This document shows positions 1,200 to 7,668 of a DNA stretch of 26,640 bases, in pieces (position 1 is the stretch's first letter; every line of letters starts with the position of its first letter). Position numbers and translations under genes: made by a program. The notes below the pieces were generated by a model that was given only the letters and a program-made list of their open reading frames with translations, was not told the DNA's origin and did not search any database. Source of the stretch: a virus. Where the stretch lies: IMG/VR virus record IMGVR_UViG_3300046516_001425, positions 1-26,640 of that record, one strand, 5' to 3'.

Positions 1200-2505
1200 C
1201 CACGCGCGTGAGCTACTGACGCACACGATCGAGGACAACCCGTACATCCCGCACGCACCGACGACGCGGCAAGCGCTCTTCCTCGCCTGCATGGTACGGG
1301 AGGCCTTCTACGGTGGGGCGGCAGGGGGCGGGAAATCGGACGCCTTGCTGATGGCGGCGGTGCAGTTCATCGACGTGCCGGGGTACAACGCCCTGCTGCT
1401 GCGCCGGACCTACGCGGACCTCTCGTTACCGGGGGCGATCATGGACCGCTCCCACGAGTGGTGGGACGGCACGGCCGCGCGCTGGCACCGGCACGACAAG
1501 CGCTGGGATTTCCCCAGTGGCGCGCGCGTCTCGTTCGGCTTCCTCGCCACCGACGCCGATCTGGAGCGCTACCGGGGCGCGGAGTTCCAGTTCTGCGGAC
1601 TGGATGAGAGCACGCAGTTCACGGGCAAGCAGATTCTCTTCCTCTTCTCCCGGCTGCGGCGACTCTCGGGCAGCAACATCCCGATCCGGCTCCGCAACGG
1701 CTCGAACCCCGGTGGCATCGGCCACGAGTGGCACAAGGAGCGCTATCTCAATCCGCTCACCCAGCGCGAGCGCCCGTTCTTCCCGGCGAAACTGCTCGAC
1801 AACCCGTACCTCGACCAGAAGGAGTACACGCGCTCCTTGGAAAATCTCGATCCCGTCACGCGCGCGCAGTTGCTCGAGGGCGACTGGAACGCGCGCTTCG
1901 ATGGTGGGCTGTTCCGCCGCGAATGGTTCACCCCGATCGACGCCCTGCCCGATCAGGCGAACCGCGTCCGCTACTGGGACTTGGCGGCGACGAAACAGAC
2001 CGGGTCATCCGATCCGGACTGGACGGTCGGCGTCCGGGTCAGTCGCGACCGGCAGGGGCTGTGGACGATCGAGGATGTCCGCCGCATCCGGGGCACGCCC
2101 GCCGAGGTCGAGAACCTGATGCGCCAGACCGCCGAACTCGACGGCACGTCGGTACGGATCTTCATCGAGCAGGAACCGGGCGCGTCGGGCAAGATCGTCA
2201 CCGACCGCTTCATCCGCGAGGTGCTCGTCGGCTATGCCGTCTACGCGGTGCGCGCCACCGGCCCGAAGTTGGAACGCGCCAAGCCCTACAGCGCCCAGGT
2301 GAACGCGGGCAATGTCCGCATTCTCCGTAGCACGTGGAACACGGCGTTCTATGACGAGCACGAGGCCTTCCCACTGGGGGCGCACGACGATCAGGTCGAT
2401 GCCGCCAGTGGCGCATTTGCCCAACTGGCGGTCAAAACGACGGGCGAGATCATCGTCGGCGGCACGCGCGCGCCGGTGAAACTGACCCTGCAAGCGATTC
2501 GCTGA
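1162..2505 (+). CDS. terL: Terminase large subunit (TerL), ATPase and nuclease
   Basis: 447 aa, a normal length for a compact TerL. This is the packaging motor that pumps DNA through the portal and cuts it. The N-terminal ATPase domain shows a Walker A motif GGAAGGGKS (51-59), a Walker B ending FCGLDES (144-150, D148 and E149) and a coupling motif SNPGG (181-185). The C-terminal RNase H-like nuclease has the expected acidic residues in YWDLAAT (D273), FIEQEPG (E337) and GAHDDQVDA (D409/D410). All catalytic residues appear intact. The start ATG at 1162 is inside terS, with AGAGG six bases upstream. The stop overlaps the next ATG (TGATG), so translation of the following methyltransferase gene is probably coupled. 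Confidence 0.96.
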   Translation: MSSAMGRVLTPTDHARELLTHTIEDNPYIPHAPTTRQALFLACMVREAFYGGAAGGGKSDALLMAAVQFIDVPGYNALLLRRTYADLSLPGAIMDRSHEWWDGTAARWHRHDKRWDFPSGARVSFGFLATDADLERYRGAEFQFCGLDESTQFTGKQILFLFSRLRRLSGSNIPIRLRNGSNPGGIGHEWHKERYLNPLTQRERPFFPAKLLDNPYLDQKEYTRSLENLDPVTRAQLLEGDWNARFDGGLFRREWFTPIDALPDQANRVRYWDLAATKQTGSSDPDWTVGVRVSRDRQGLWTIEDVRRIRGTPAEVENLMRQTAELDGTSVRIFIEQEPGASGKIVTDRFIREVLVGYAVYAVRATGPKLERAKPYSAQVNAGNVRILRSTWNTAFYDEHEAFPLGAHDDQVDAASGAFAQLAVKTTGEIIVGGTRAPVKLTLQAIR

Positions 2506-3035
2506 TGGGTGACTATCTCACCATCGTTGCCGATCCACCGTGGCAGGAACGGACCATCGGGCGTTGGAAGGTCGCGAAGCACCATCTCCCCGCCGCGTTG
2601 CCGTATCAGACGCTACCGTTGGACGCCATCTGCGCGCTGCCCATCGCCCCGCTGGCAGCGGTTGGCGCGCACCTCTGGCTCTGGACCACGAATAGCCACC
2701 TCGATGCCGCGTTCGACGTGCTGCGGGCGTGGGGGTTCACCTACCTGACGACCGTCACGTGGGTCAAGCCCTCTGGTTTCGGTGCCTACTTCGCCAGTAC
2801 CACCCAGCATTGCCTGTTTGGCTACTTCCAGAAGTGCAAGTTCCCGCACGCACGCTGGCAACCGACGCACTTCACGGCCAGTGTCAAGCGACACAGCCAG
2901 AAGCCCGAGCAGTTCTATGACCTCGTGGAGCGCGTCAGCCCCGCTCCCCGGCTTGAGCTTTTCGCCCGCCGCATGCGTCTTGGCTACGACGTTTGGGGCG
3001 ATGAAGTGCCATCGTCAATCACGCTACCGGTCTAA
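2505..3035 (+). CDS. MT-A70-type adenine-N6 methyltransferase
   Basis: 176 aa. It shows the signature of the MT-A70 family: DPPW at 10-13 (the catalytic motif of adenine-N6 methyltransferases), YQTLPLDAI at 34-42, LWLWTT at 57-62, WVKP at 86-89, the HSQKPEQFYDLVE segment at 130-142, ELFAR at 151-155 and a closing YDVWGDE. Family members transfer a methyl group from S-adenosylmethionine to adenine in DNA or RNA. Here the likely substrate is phage DNA, perhaps for protection from host restriction, or for marking packaging sites, but the target sequence is unknown. No specificity domain or cognate nuclease is seen. It overlaps terL by one base and lies between packaging and portal genes, an unusual place for a modification gene. 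Confidence 0.9.
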   Translation: MGDYLTIVADPPWQERTIGRWKVAKHHLPAALPYQTLPLDAICALPIAPLAAVGAHLWLWTTNSHLDAAFDVLRAWGFTYLTTVTWVKPSGFGAYFASTTQHCLFGYFQKCKFPHARWQPTHFTASVKRHSQKPEQFYDLVERVSPAPRLELFARRMRLGYDVWGDEVPSSITLPV

Positions 3036-3098: not shown

Positions 3099-4628
3099 AT
3101 GGCCGAAACGGTCATTTCTGAGGAAATCTCAGTCGGTGGCACCCCGGCACGCCCCGGCACGCCCGGTATGCCCGCCAGGACCGAGCAGTTGTTCGCTCCC
3201 GCCACCGTCGAAGTCGTCGCCGGTGGTCGCGCCCAGTGGACCGCCAACATCCCCAAGGCGCTGCCCTTTCAGTTCGACGATCTCACCACCGACTTCGGCG
3301 ACGACATCTATCAAAAGATGCTGATGGACCCCCAGGTCTCGGCCTGCCTCAATACGCTCAAGACCGCGATCCTCTCCGACGGTGTCTCGATCACCTCCGC
3401 CATCCTCGACGCCACCGCGCCCGGTTTCAAACGCGCGCAGACGATCGCCGCCTTCGTCCAGAGCGACATGGAGAACCTCGAGCCGACGCTCGACAGCGTC
3501 CTCTGGTCCCTCCTCGACGCGATGGCGTACGGCTCGAAGGTGGCGGAGCAAGTCTACCGGCTCGCGGGCGGGCAACTGCACCTCGCGGCGCTCAAGGTCA
3601 AACCGCGCCGGGTGACCGCGTTCGTGGTTGATGCCTACATGAATGTCCTCGGCATCCTCGCCGTCGTCCCCGGCACCGCGTCCTCCGCCACGCTCAGTAC
3701 GATGCTGATTCCCGATCCCGCCAGCATGCCGAACATGCTGCCGCGCGACAAGTTCGCCGTCTTCACGCACTGGCCGAAGGACGCCGATCCACGCGGCACC
3801 TCGATCCTCCGTCCCGCCTATCGCCCGTGGTGGGACAAGCAGCAGATGGTGCCCGAATATCTGAAATACCTGACGCAGTTCGCCTCGGCGTCGATGATCG
3901 CCACCGCGCCCGAGCAGAACTCGCCGTACACGACGACCGATGCCGAGGGGACGACGACGCAGCAGAGTGTCGCCCAGCAGATGGCGGCGGCACTGCAAGA
4001 TTTCCGCAACGGCACCTTCCTCGTCCTGCCCTACGGCTCAACCGCCAAGCCGATCGAGGTCGCGGGCGAAGGTGTCCCCTTCATGCACGCGTTCGATCGA
4101 TTCGACCGGCAAATCTCGACGGCGATCCTGCACCAGACGCTCGCCACGCAGGAAAGTCGGCACGAGACGCGCGCCGCCGCCGAGGTCCATCAGGACATCC
4201 TCGCCCTGCTGATTCGCCTGGGCAAGCGCGCGCTGGCGCAGATGCTCCGCAACGATGTCTTCCGTCCGCTCGTGCGCTACAACTGGGGCGACGACGCGGC
4301 CAATCGCTTCACGCCGACCGTCAACCTCTCCGAGATCGAAGCCGAAGACCTCTCGCCCCGGATGATCGCCGTCGCCAACATGGCCGACAAAGGTCTCATT
4401 TTCCCGAGCCAACTGCCCGACCTGTTCGCCGATCTCGATCTCCCCGAGGCATCGCAGGAAGACCTCGCCCGCTACGCCGAGCAGTTCGCCGCTCCCCCGC
4501 CGCAGGCCGCGCCCACCCCGCCACCGACCGCAGCGGGCACGCCCGTCACGCCGACGACCACCGACACCACGCCACCGGTCCCACCGGCCCAGGACAACAA
4601 CCCTAGTCAGGAGGAGGCAATGGCATGA
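3099..4628 (+). CDS. Portal protein
   Basis: 509 aa. The portal forms the dodecameric DNA channel at one head vertex, the docking site for TerL and the head-tail connector. The segment DFGDDIYQKMLMDPQVSA (65-82) and the following helices resemble the DUF935/Mu gp29-like group of portals. The central region contains the usual helical stem (LHQTLATQESRHETRAAAEV). The last 45 or so residues (from about 463) are a Pro/Thr-rich, apparently disordered tail (APPPQAAPTPPPTAAGTPV). The start ATG at 3099 has AAGGGG (3087-3092) upstream. It is preceded by 63 non-coding bases. Its stop overlaps the next start as ATGA. The portal role also follows from position and size. Confidence 0.88.
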   Translation: MAETVISEEISVGGTPARPGTPGMPARTEQLFAPATVEVVAGGRAQWTANIPKALPFQFDDLTTDFGDDIYQKMLMDPQVSACLNTLKTAILSDGVSITSAILDATAPGFKRAQTIAAFVQSDMENLEPTLDSVLWSLLDAMAYGSKVAEQVYRLAGGQLHLAALKVKPRRVTAFVVDAYMNVLGILAVVPGTASSATLSTMLIPDPASMPNMLPRDKFAVFTHWPKDADPRGTSILRPAYRPWWDKQQMVPEYLKYLTQFASASMIATAPEQNSPYTTTDAEGTTTQQSVAQQMAAALQDFRNGTFLVLPYGSTAKPIEVAGEGVPFMHAFDRFDRQISTAILHQTLATQESRHETRAAAEVHQDILALLIRLGKRALAQMLRNDVFRPLVRYNWGDDAANRFTPTVNLSEIEAEDLSPRMIAVANMADKGLIFPSQLPDLFADLDLPEASQEDLARYAEQFAAPPPQAAPTPPPTAAGTPVTPTTTDTTPPVPPAQDNNPSQEEAMA

Positions 4629-4813
4629 TGGTCAGCTTCGCACTAACCTTTAATCTCCGTGGGTTGCTCTTCCTCATTGGCGCGGTCGTTCTCGGTGTGG
4701 TCGCCGTGGCACTGCTCGCACCGGCACCTCGTCCGAACTGGCCCCTCGGTGCGGTCGCCGCCGCGTTGTGTCTCGGCTTCGTGGGCTGGTTTTTGTGGGC
4801 GGCGGGTGCCTGA
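4625..4813 (+). CDS. Small two-helix membrane protein
   Basis: 62 aa, no recognised family. Two hydrophobic segments are clear: about 12-32 (LLFLIGAVVLGVVAVALL) and about 41-60 (AVAAALCLGFVGWFLWAA), separated by a short turn APAPRPNWP. The likely topology is a helical hairpin in the inner membrane. The start overlaps the portal stop (ATGA), with GAGGAGG at 4611-4617 nine bases before the ATG at 4625 and with a second in-frame ATG directly after it. Size and topology would fit a class II holin or a small membrane anchor for assembly, but the place between portal and protease/scaffold is not the usual site for lysis genes. No function is claimed. Confidence 0.75.
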   Translation: MMVSFALTFNLRGLLFLIGAVVLGVVAVALLAPAPRPNWPLGAVAAALCLGFVGWFLWAAGA

Positions 4814-4825
4814 GAGGAGAACGTC

Positions 4826-6130
4826 ATGTCGAAATGGGGCACCGCGACAGCGGCGGAAAGACGTTCCGCCCCAGCAGGGACATTCTGCGGGACAAACAAC
4901 TCTTTCCCGGTCGCGGATCAAGAGGATGTCAACAACGCGGTGCGCGCGCTCGGTCGCGCCGGTGGTGATACCGCGCCGATCAAGTCGTGCATCATCCGCA
5001 AGGCAAAGGCGAACAACTGGACGCTGCCGCAGGCATGGATGAGCGCGGGGACACCGGTGGCGACCTTCGCGCTCGCGGATGCCAGCATCAACGCGGACAC
5101 GGTCACCCGGCGCGGTCTGGTCTTCCGTGCAGGCGATTACCCGGACAAGCAGTTCGCGGCGACGATCGAAGACCTCTATGCCGCCGCCACGAGTTTTGTG
5201 CCCGTGGACAATGATCTGGAGCACGTCCCCACCGTCCTCTCAGGAAAACTCGGGATGCTGACCAGCGTCTCGCTCTCGGAGAGCGGCGAGGAGTTGTACG
5301 GCGAGGTGGAGATTCCGCGCTGGCTCCACGACGCCATCGGAGACGCGCCGATCAAGTCCTCGCTCTCGTGGGACCGTGAATCGATGCAAATCGTCGGCAA
5401 CGCCCTCGTGCTGGAGCCACGCGTCGAGGATGCAGCCCTGATGAGCGCCTACACGGCCTTTACCGCCAGTCAACCGAACGCAGACCCGCCAACGGTCGTA
5501 GCGCCCGCTACGACGCCTGCCGAGGACATCAGCGCAGAGGCCGCGATCGGCTTCTGGTCCACCGTGCGCGCCCTGATGACAGGGCAAGACCCAAAGCCGC
5601 CGTCTGTCGTACCCGGAACCGTTCCACCACCGCAGGCGGCAACCGCGCCCACCGGCGCAGAGGAGGCACCCGTGAGTTTCGCGGAGTCCGAAGAGTACAA
5701 GGCGATGCAGGCGACGATTGCCGCCCTGACCGCCGACAACACGGCGCGCGCCGCGCGTGAGCAAGCGCGCGAGCGAGACATCATTGCCGAGCGCGCCGCG
5801 ACCTTCGCGGACGCTGAGATCAACGCCCTGCGTGCCGTGCCCGCAGAGCGTGACGGTCTCGTTGCCGCCTTCACCGACGCGGCCACCGATGACAGCAGCA
5901 CCCCGCGCACCGTGACGTTCTCGGTCAATGGCGAGCAGAAGGAAGGCAGTCGCGTCGATGCGCTGCGCGCGCGCCAAGCCGCCCGCACGCCGCACACCCT
6001 CACCAAAGAGCAGGTGGCCGAGGGCACCGTCCTGATGGCACAGCGCCCCGCCAACACCGCGCCGGTGAAGATGAGCGCCGAACGCAAGGCGGAACTGCTG
6101 GTCGCCTCCGGATTCTCCGTCAACAGCTAG
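4826..6130 (+). CDS. Head maturation protease / scaffold fusion (putative)
   Basis: 434 aa. It has three parts. Residues 1-75 (FPVADQEDVNNAVRALGR, IRKAKANNW) resemble a small helical domain found at the end of many phage proteins. Residues about 78-212 resemble the protease-like part of Mu I/prohead protease proteins (EHVPTVLSGKLGMLTS, YGEVEIPRWL, SSLSWDRE, LVLEPRVEDAALM), with H133 and S179/S181 as possible catalytic residues. A Pro/Thr linker (216-285) is followed by a charged coiled-coil (290-345) and a basic C-terminal end, as expected for a scaffold. The position between portal and capsid genes agrees. An internal start at 5672 could make the scaffold alone. GAGAGGAGA lies before the ATG. 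Protease activity is inferred, not certain. Confidence 0.7.
   Translation: MSKWGTATAAERRSAPAGTFCGTNNSFPVADQEDVNNAVRALGRAGGDTAPIKSCIIRKAKANNWTLPQAWMSAGTPVATFALADASINADTVTRRGLVFRAGDYPDKQFAATIEDLYAAATSFVPVDNDLEHVPTVLSGKLGMLTSVSLSESGEELYGEVEIPRWLHDAIGDAPIKSSLSWDRESMQIVGNALVLEPRVEDAALMSAYTAFTASQPNADPPTVVAPATTPAEDISAEAAIGFWSTVRALMTGQDPKPPSVVPGTVPPPQAATAPTGAEEAPVSFAESEEYKAMQATIAALTADNTARAAREQARERDIIAERAATFADAEINALRAVPAERDGLVAAFTDAATDDSSTPRTVTFSVNGEQKEGSRVDALRARQAARTPHTLTKEQVAEGTVLMAQRPANTAPVKMSAERKAELLVASGFSVNS
5672..6130 (+). CDS. Internal-start scaffolding protein (nested in protease gene)
   Basis: 152 aa if translated alone. GTG at 5672 is in frame with the 434-aa gene (codon 283) and has AGGAGG at 5661-5666 with a five-base spacer, as good as the sites of the main genes. 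It falls exactly at the end of the Pro/Thr linker and the start of the coiled-coil (ESEEYKAMQATIAALTADN). In phage lambda, Nu3 scaffold is made the same way from inside gene C. The product would be an alpha-helical, highly charged protein with a basic C-terminal region (MSAERKAELLVASGF), fitting a capsid-assembly core that is later removed. Confidence 0.6.
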   Translation: MSFAESEEYKAMQATIAALTADNTARAAREQARERDIIAERAATFADAEINALRAVPAERDGLVAAFTDAATDDSSTPRTVTFSVNGEQKEGSRVDALRARQAARTPHTLTKEQVAEGTVLMAQRPANTAPVKMSAERKAELLVASGFSVNS

Positions 6131-6186
6131 CCCCCCAACCCTCCACTCCCCGTCTCACTCAACGCCCAACCTTGGGAGGAATCATC

Positions 6187-6597
6187 ATGCCGAACGCACC
6201 GGTTACTGTCTTCAGTGGTCTGCGCCTCGATCCCTACATGGACCCGGACGACGCGCTCGAGTTCGCCATTTCACTCAAGGCCAGCACGTCCTACGCCAAG
6301 GGCACCGTCCTCGGTGAGATAACCGCCACACCCGGCACCTTCGCCGCCTACGCCACTGGCAATGGCGACGGTTCCAACACGCCGCGCTGCATCCTCCAGT
6401 ACGCGGCCGTCACCGACGCCAGCGGCAATATCACGATCGCCGGTGAGCAAGGGATGACCCGGAAAGACGTTCCTGCGTATTTCGCGGGCACCTTTGCCTG
6501 CGCCGATCTCGTCGGTCTCGATGCCGGTGGCGTCACCGCTGCTGGCTGGCGGCTGATCAACGGCTCGGCCACCACCGGTGTTGTCCGCCTGGGCTAA
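6187..6597 (+). CDS. Head decoration protein (putative)
   Basis: 136 aa, Gly/Ala/Thr-rich and mostly beta by appearance. Place (just before the capsid gene) and size match lambda gpD-like decoration proteins, which bind the outside of the expanded capsid and stabilise it. The segment YAKGTVLGEITATPGTFAAY followed by CILQYAAVTDASGNI is the typical pattern of such proteins (an initial 'what remains constant' strand, then 'bulk of data' strands). The ATG at 6187 was chosen over a TTG at 6172 because GGGAGGA (6174-6180) precedes it. The leader has a pyrimidine-rich tract and a hairpin overlapping the ribosome binding site. Confidence 0.78.
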   Translation: MPNAPVTVFSGLRLDPYMDPDDALEFAISLKASTSYAKGTVLGEITATPGTFAAYATGNGDGSNTPRCILQYAAVTDASGNITIAGEQGMTRKDVPAYFAGTFACADLVGLDAGGVTAAGWRLINGSATTGVVRLG

Positions 6598-6651
6598 CGC
6601 GCCCCCATCCCCCCTCGATCCACTTTCGCTTTAGCCTAAGGGGGCTATTCC

Positions 6652-7668
6652 ATGGCCGACGTGATTTTCCCCAGTAACGCCGAGTTGACGGAGATTTCGC
6701 AGGACTTGATGCCGCGTCTGCAAGCGGGGCGCGTGACCTTCGACTTCTTCCCGATCGTCACCCAGGACGCGTGGCTCTTGATCTGGGAGCAGTTGGACAA
6801 TTTCCAGGGTCTGCAATACGCGCGCGGCCTCAACGGCCAGCCGACGCGGATCAAGAAGACCGGCGCAAAGCGCTTCGCGATGCAGCCCGGTGTCTACGGT
6901 GAGTTCGAGTACATCGATGAGGAAGAACTGACCATCCGGCGTCAGTACGGCACGTTCAATGCGCCGATCAACCTCACCGACCTCGTCTCGACCGCGAACG
7001 TCAAACTGCTTCAGCGCGAGTTGGACCGGATGGAGGCGATCATCTGGACGCTGCTCACCACCGGCACCTTCGCCGTTGCCGGTCCCACGGGCGCGATCGT
7101 CCACACGGACATCTTCACGATGAAGACGCAGACACCGCTCAATGGGGCGTGGTCAACCACCGCGACCTCGACGCCGCTCGCGGACTTGCGTGCCACGGCG
7201 CTCCTCGGTCGCGGCACCTCGGCCAACTTCGGCGCGGGCGCGAAGGTCTATGTCAATCAGGTGACCGCCAACAACATCATCGCCAACACGAATGCCGCCG
7301 ACCTCGGCGGCAAGCGCTTCGGGCTGGGCACGCTCAACAACCTCAGTGATGTCAACACCCTGCTGACGATGGACGGTCTCGCCAATATCGCCGTCTACGA
7401 TCAGGGCTACATCGATGAGACGGGGACGTTCCAGACCTTCATCCCGAACGCGAAAGCGGTCGTCATCGGCCAGCGACCGGGCGGACAGGTGCTGGGGAAC
7501 TACCGGCTGGTCAGAAATGCCAACAATGACGGCTTCGGCCCCGGCCCCTACTCGATGGTCGTCGATAACATCGATGACGGCCCGCCACGCAGCATCGCCG
7601 TGCACCGGGGCCACTCGGGTGGGCCAGTACTCTTCTTCGGCACCGCGATTGTGCAGATGAACGTGTAG
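6652..7668 (+). CDS. Major capsid protein, lambda gpE-like
   Basis: 338 aa, a typical length for lambda gpE-type HK97-fold capsid proteins. Features seen include FDFFPIVTQDAWLLIWEQLD, the block RIKKTGAKRFAMQPGVYGEF (a Mu/lambda-type N-arm), the segment QRELDRMEAIIWTLLTTGTF, which fits a spine helix, and the closing part GPYSMVVDNIDDGPPRSIAV. It forms the icosahedral shell. GGGGG (6640-6644) lies seven bases ahead of ATG 6652, within the loop of a small TAGCC/GGCTA stem. It follows the decoration gene and is followed by an 83-base structured spacer, which fits a need for high and separately set expression. Confidence 0.9.
   Translation: MADVIFPSNAELTEISQDLMPRLQAGRVTFDFFPIVTQDAWLLIWEQLDNFQGLQYARGLNGQPTRIKKTGAKRFAMQPGVYGEFEYIDEEELTIRRQYGTFNAPINLTDLVSTANVKLLQRELDRMEAIIWTLLTTGTFAVAGPTGAIVHTDIFTMKTQTPLNGAWSTTATSTPLADLRATALLGRGTSANFGAGAKVYVNQVTANNIIANTNAADLGGKRFGLGTLNNLSDVNTLLTMDGLANIAVYDQGYIDETGTFQTFIPNAKAVVIGQRPGGQVLGNYRLVRNANNDGFGPGPYSMVVDNIDDGPPRSIAVHRGHSGGPVLFFGTAIVQMNV

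Follow-up and report, generated by a model that had tools for sequence, protein, structure and literature searches.

The gene at 4826-6130 of the window (the whole stretch of 26,640 nucleotides that was analyzed) very probably makes two products in one frame, namely, a protease-scaffold fusion and a nested scaffold of ~16 kDa, the latter presumably in excess over the protease and co-assembling with it so that the fused protease would enter the procapsid. Two features of the class of nested protease/scaffold genes were found: a Shine-Dalgarno (SD) of its own for the internal start lies between the protease and the scaffold parts, and the site is conserved in 8/8 close relatives and in 19/23 relatives by the region rule described below.

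The steps that we propose are as follows. Initiation at ATG 4826 would give the 434-aa fusion, while initiation at GTG 5672, driven by AGGAGG at 5661-5666, would give the C-terminal scaffold alone, of 152 aa. The strength of the internal site would put the scaffold in excess over the fusion, and the scaffold with a few fusion molecules would then join the portal and the capsid protein through the C-terminal part that both products share. The fused protease, with His133 and Ser179, would thereby enter the procapsid in few copies; its later task would be to degrade the scaffold, making room for DNA entry and for the binding of the D-like protein.

The gene, its internal start and its neighbors

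The features of the gene and of its surroundings are listed in Table 1. The internal site reads ggcgcAGAGGAGGcacccGTGagt in the window, and in it the 5-nt spacer CACCC separates AGGAGG from GTG 5672, which is in the same frame as ATG 4826. The calculated duplex with the anti-SD has an energy of -11.3 kcal/mol at the internal site versus -8.4 at the gene's own ATG, and the starts of the neighboring head genes are weaker than the internal site as well (decoration protein, -10.2; portal, -10.2; major capsid protein, -9.9 kcal/mol). By SD strength GTG 5672 ranks first among the 20 in-frame starts beyond codon 40. An SD of this strength is found in the window at seven start triplets on the + strand and 11 on the - strand. 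That the nested ORF has a promoter of its own was considered and rejected because no sigma-70-type site was found in 4400-6700, a consensus that may not suit the host. Also rejected was the reading of an out-of-frame SD-GTG at DAEVIR as a second nested gene, since its ORFs have 71-81 codons, it occurs in 4/8 relatives and the conserved residues explain it.

Table 1. Positions of the protease/scaffold gene, its parts and the neighboring genes in the window
Feature	Position	Strand	Evidence or remarks
MT-A70 adenine methyltransferase	2505-3035		between TerL and portal; PF05063 E 7.4e-26
Mu-type portal protein	3099-4628	+	PF06074 E 7.9e-51
62-aa hydrophobic ORF, two TM-like segments	4625-4813	+	translation; overlaps portal stop (ATGA)
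Protease-scaffold fusion gene, 434 aa	4826-6130	+	ORF; phrog_976 match; alignment with 19 relatives
Beta-rich protease domain, residues 72-216	5039-5473	+	invariant columns; domain model pLDDT 91.8
His133 codon	5222-5224	+	invariant in alignment
Ser179 codon	5360-5362	+	invariant in alignment
Pro/Thr/Ala-rich linker, residues 222-280	5489-5665	+	pLDDT; barely alignable among relatives
Internal Shine-Dalgarno AGGAGG	5661-5666	+	sequence; -11.3 kcal/mol; same 5-nt spacer in 8/8 close relatives
Internal GTG start codon, codon 283	5672-5674	+	sole all-GTG column among 7 invariant Val columns
Proposed nested scaffold, 152 aa (~16 kDa)	5672-6130	+	in-frame ORF; helices; own phrog_976 match
Lambda D-like head decoration protein	6187-6597	+	PF02924 E 1.5e-6; phrog_49 E 1.5e-7
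Lambda E-like major capsid protein	6652-7668	+	PF03864 E 1.6e-11; phrog_29 E 1.8e-13
Tape-measure protein, 1963 aa	11828-17719		

In the full-length AlphaFold model, made with 20 relatives, the N-terminus is helical, residues 76-215 form a beta-rich domain and the linker is mostly disordered, with pLDDT below 50 at residues 222-240 and 258-280 and a short helix at 243-252 between them. A helix of 45 residues (289-333) follows, then one at 339-358 and a C-terminal one at 418-427, and thus GTG283 falls between the disordered linker and the long helix. The preliminary description had claimed a well-spaced AGGAGG and in-frame GTG at the boundary between linker and coiled-coil; the spacing is plain in the sequence, where the start is codon 283 of 434, and the boundary is borne out by the model, in which disorder reaches residue 280 and helix begins at 289. 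Four columns in the protease domain, E132, H133, K177 and S179, are invariant in the alignment of 20 sequences, and from these His133 and Ser179 are the likely catalytic pair.

The order of the genes is TerL (a PF17289 match), MT-A70 methyltransferase, portal, 62-aa ORF, protease/scaffold, D-like protein, E-like capsid protein and tail genes, and by its profile matches the set combines a portal of the Mu type with D and E proteins of the lambda type. The match of the D-like protein to PF02924 scores 28.8 bits, which is 0.3 bit below the cut-off of 29.1. The 62-aa ORF also separates the portal gene from the protease gene in L009, L010, L011 and L040; inside the head module of the window its start is preceded by a strong AGGAGGAGG. 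The tape measure has two weak matches, lytic-transglycosylase-like at ~1040-1143 and endolysin-like at ~1231-1263.

Conservation of the internal start

The close set consists of the window and the loci L009, L010, L011, L012, L040, L042 and L043 (n=8), whose proteins are 51-73% identical in pairwise comparison. Within this set identical residues share the same codon at only 46-64%, and therefore codon choice is largely saturated. In spite of this, SD-5 nt-GTG stands at a single alignment column in 8/8 members, in a linker that is otherwise barely alignable. When all columns were scanned in the three frames the runner-up was present in 4/8 and was out of frame. The internal-start Val is GTG in 8/8, and the other six invariant Val columns have mixed codons. 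L010 spells AGGAGG with CAG GAG in place of GAG GAG, and it retains the site despite a protease/scaffold protein only 64% identical to that of the window. Over 3099-7668 this locus has a capsid protein 96% and a portal 87% identical to those of the window, so that, judged from this pair, divergence or recombination is much faster in the protease/scaffold gene than in the genes around it.

Chance was assessed by shuffling synonymous codons according to the gene's own codon usage with the protein held fixed, and a site was counted if it was at least as strong as the real one. In the window gene 23% of the shuffles recreate the site, since Glu-Glu-x-x-Val is easily spelled in this way where GAG and GTG abound. 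The chances for all eight members are 0.23, 0.14, 0.21, 0.12, 0.03, 0.16, 0.10 and 0.15, and their product is ~5e-8, or ~3e-6 with the related L040, L042 and L043 counted once, both values assuming independence. From the window sequence alone, then, the internal site could be chance, and it is conservation that lifts it beyond. The preliminary description had tied its reading to the presence of the site in relatives, and SD-GTG is indeed kept in all of the close set, while most of the more distant viral relatives have an SD with ATG or GTG at this place between the domains.

For the wider family we used a region rule by which the strongest in-frame SD-start must fall between the PR[VI]xxA motif and the PAER-type motif. 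It is satisfied by 19/23 relatives versus 8.0 expected (P 1.3e-6), a rule that was formulated after most of the individual sites were known and is therefore not fully blind; the out-of-frame control gave 19/46 versus 13.0 expected. The four misses include L041, in which a false motif shortened the region, and L025, which lies one residue outside, and the count of 19/23 was left unadjusted. The distant relatives L014, L017, L018, L021, L023, L024 and L025 have an SD with ATG or GTG in the linker amid unrelated residues, such as GGGDN-MPVTKKK, NGGAE-VPEKRT, QEGKH-MSNWDRF and TEDIH-MSEATL. Since these relatives differ in residues yet keep the SD-led start, the comparison argues that the start signal, and not a peptide motif, is what has been retained. 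An SD with ATG is also present at the same junction in L071-L074, L076 and L079, loci of bacterial genomes that were not used to frame the idea; examples are aaggagacaaaacgaATG and KETKR-MPQSLKERLRTLFG. A clear internal site is absent in L015, L070, L077, L082 and L083, and that of L016 is weak. When the window protein, L017 and L021 were used as tblastn queries against 50,697 annotated phage genomes, none gave a match, and hence no annotated relative was at hand for comparison.

The start of most of the distant relatives is found immediately upstream of a short helix of the WWxKL/LKERL type, whereas in the clade of the window it lies past the corresponding helix (243-252), ~45 residues downstream, as placed by a weak alignment of the linker. 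The start columns in the alignment differ accordingly, ~385-393 in most distant relatives versus 446 in the window clade. We suggest tentatively that, with the xxWWxKLxAL-type helix as a landmark, the nested start may occupy at least two positions within one protease/scaffold family. If this is true, the scaffold start was moved or re-invented while it was kept, and selection acts on having two products and not on a particular site.

The extension of the nested start to the widespread one-copy relatives of Armatimonadota was tried and rejected: the signal is not above chance in 74 loci, mostly such remote relatives (26 versus 22.4 expected, P 0.19). Because the signal is absent in these remote relatives, the nested start belongs to part of the protease/scaffold superfamily and not to all of it. 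The survey covered 291 genomes (G020-G249 are of the phylum of L007, a Chthonomonas MAG). A remote relative of the protease is present in 131/291, a Mu gpT-like capsid protein in 123/291, a Mu-type portal in 144/291 and a Terminase_6C match in 149/291, mostly one copy of each per genome. In several single-contig genomes the pair of TerL and portal is far from the trio of protease, small virion protein and capsid (1.675 versus 2.687 Mb in G140, 1.80 versus 2.83 Mb in G139 and 0.49 versus 1.25 Mb in G081), and in G168 the head genes are at three places. In L149 the trio has a MutY-like gene and a Na+/H+ antiporter as its neighbors; the positions concerned are 7425-9734 in L149 and 9128-11581 in L150. 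The dispersed Mu-type head genes suggest a domesticated phage or a gene transfer agent in Armatimonadota because they are single-copy, dispersed and widely shared. A limited literature search found no paper on such an element in this phylum.

Other explanations and the affinities of the protease

It could be argued that Glu-Glu-x-x-Val written in GC-rich codons spells a site that is never used. The rate of recreation in the window alone (P = 0.23) favors this, as does the strong out-of-frame SD-GTG at DAEVIR, which is purely protein-driven in 4/8 relatives. We hold it to be very improbable in view of the 8/8 conservation despite largely saturated synonymous sites and of the region test, and the linker residues are otherwise unconserved. 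Another explanation, which we consider unlikely, is that there is no separate initiation and that the linker motif is an autocleavage site at which self-processing of the fusion frees the scaffold, as for pUL26C at the herpesvirus R-site. Phage proteases self-process, and residues of the AE[E]xxxV-like or [E/Q]ExxV kind are conserved at the junction in the close relatives. Herpesvirus UL26 has an R-site as well as a nested start (PMC4498786). However, the conserved features are the choice of codon (GTG in 8/8, AGGAGG by different codons in L010) and the fixed spacing, the distant relatives keep SD with ATG or GTG and not the residues, and cleavage would yield equimolar products; cleavage and initiation can also coexist.

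A third explanation is that internal initiation does occur but yields something other than a classical scaffold, such as a protein that inhibits the protease in a dominant-negative manner or a cofactor of portal assembly. The 152-aa part resembles only phrog_976 and no biochemically proven scaffold, but the gene belongs to a module of portal, protease, D and E genes in which there is no other evident scaffold gene between portal and capsid, and the model gives the product a long helix and a short C-terminal helix. A product other than a scaffold is likewise unlikely, and a nested scaffold is the reading that we prefer.

The family to which the protease belongs is less clear-cut. The window protein matches phrog_976 (head maturation protease) with E 3.3e-5 over residues 269-423, that is, in its C-terminal half only; the nested 152-aa part alone matches the C-terminal half of phrog_976 with E 1.5e-4, and 10 of the 11 members of the set A2 match this family. 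PF10123, the Mu I family, gives no match to the window protein itself but is matched by one relative (E 0.0027) and by a remote Armatimonadota relative that passes the cut-off (27.1 versus 25.2 bits). Direct homology to Mu I was rejected because the comparison of profiles was not significant. Membership in the Mu-I family is thus borderline, and the remote affinities of the protease, by PF10123 and phrog_976, are Mu-I-like. In Foldseek searches the full-length model matches herpesvirus proteases with probabilities of 0.94-0.99 but E >= 0.02, and with the domain-only model these proteases are not among the best 50 matches. A fold of the herpesvirus assemblin type is therefore suggested by the full model only and is not borne out by the domain model.

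Comparison with known nested scaffolds

Because annotation pipelines usually list only the long protein of such genes, many uncultured phages probably have scaffolds that go unnoticed. A cheap way to detect nested scaffolds is the test applied here, which asks whether an SD-led start is conserved at the level of codons and includes out-of-frame controls.

Herpesvirus UL26/UL26.5 resembles the window gene in having an N-terminal serine protease, a linker and a C-terminal scaffold that is also made separately in frame (PMC4498786). It differs in that herpesviruses make the nested scaffold from a separate internal promoter and transcript (Liu and Roizman 1991, as cited in PMC4498786). In gene 27 of PaMx73, a Mu-like phage of P. 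aeruginosa, an in-frame internal start at Val177 behind a plausible SD was predicted from sequence, but this gene is of another sequence family and the prediction concerned a single phage, with Mu as the sole comparison (PMC4378225).

In Mu the protease I contains the start of the nested scaffold Z, which has its own RBS (AF083977 annotation), and the portal of the window phage is of the Mu type. The Mu start is an ATG, unlike the GTG of the window, and has a weaker SD (-7.4 kcal/mol). With this energy the annotated Z start ranks second in the scan of Mu, and hence this score does not suffice by itself for choosing a start.

The preliminary description had held that the logic is the same as that of lambda C/Nu3. 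This is sound functionally and by gene order, since both have the order portal - protease/scaffold - D - E, an in-frame nested C-terminal product and neighbors of the D and E families, but the protease is not a homologue of lambda C. Lambda C is a Peptidase_S49 (PF01343, E 1.5e-44), whereas no S49 match was obtained for the window protein, whose invariant His and Ser are of another kind; on this ground homology to lambda C was rejected. The Mu-type portal is a further difference from lambda. When lambda C was scanned for calibration, the strongest in-frame SD-start was at codon 309, giving a product of 131 aa, and the Nu3 start annotated in GenBank, codon 239, ranked second. Purified Nu3 protein is reportedly ~13 kDa, a size in keeping with a start at codon 309. 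The latter is at L064:1343, which is position 5342 of J02459. On the sequence comparisons made here, the nested start of the window adds a well-supported case to a trick already known from lambda and Mu and does not represent a novel type of system, and the nested protease/scaffold arrangement is now seen in a gene set with a Mu-type portal and lambda-type D and E proteins.
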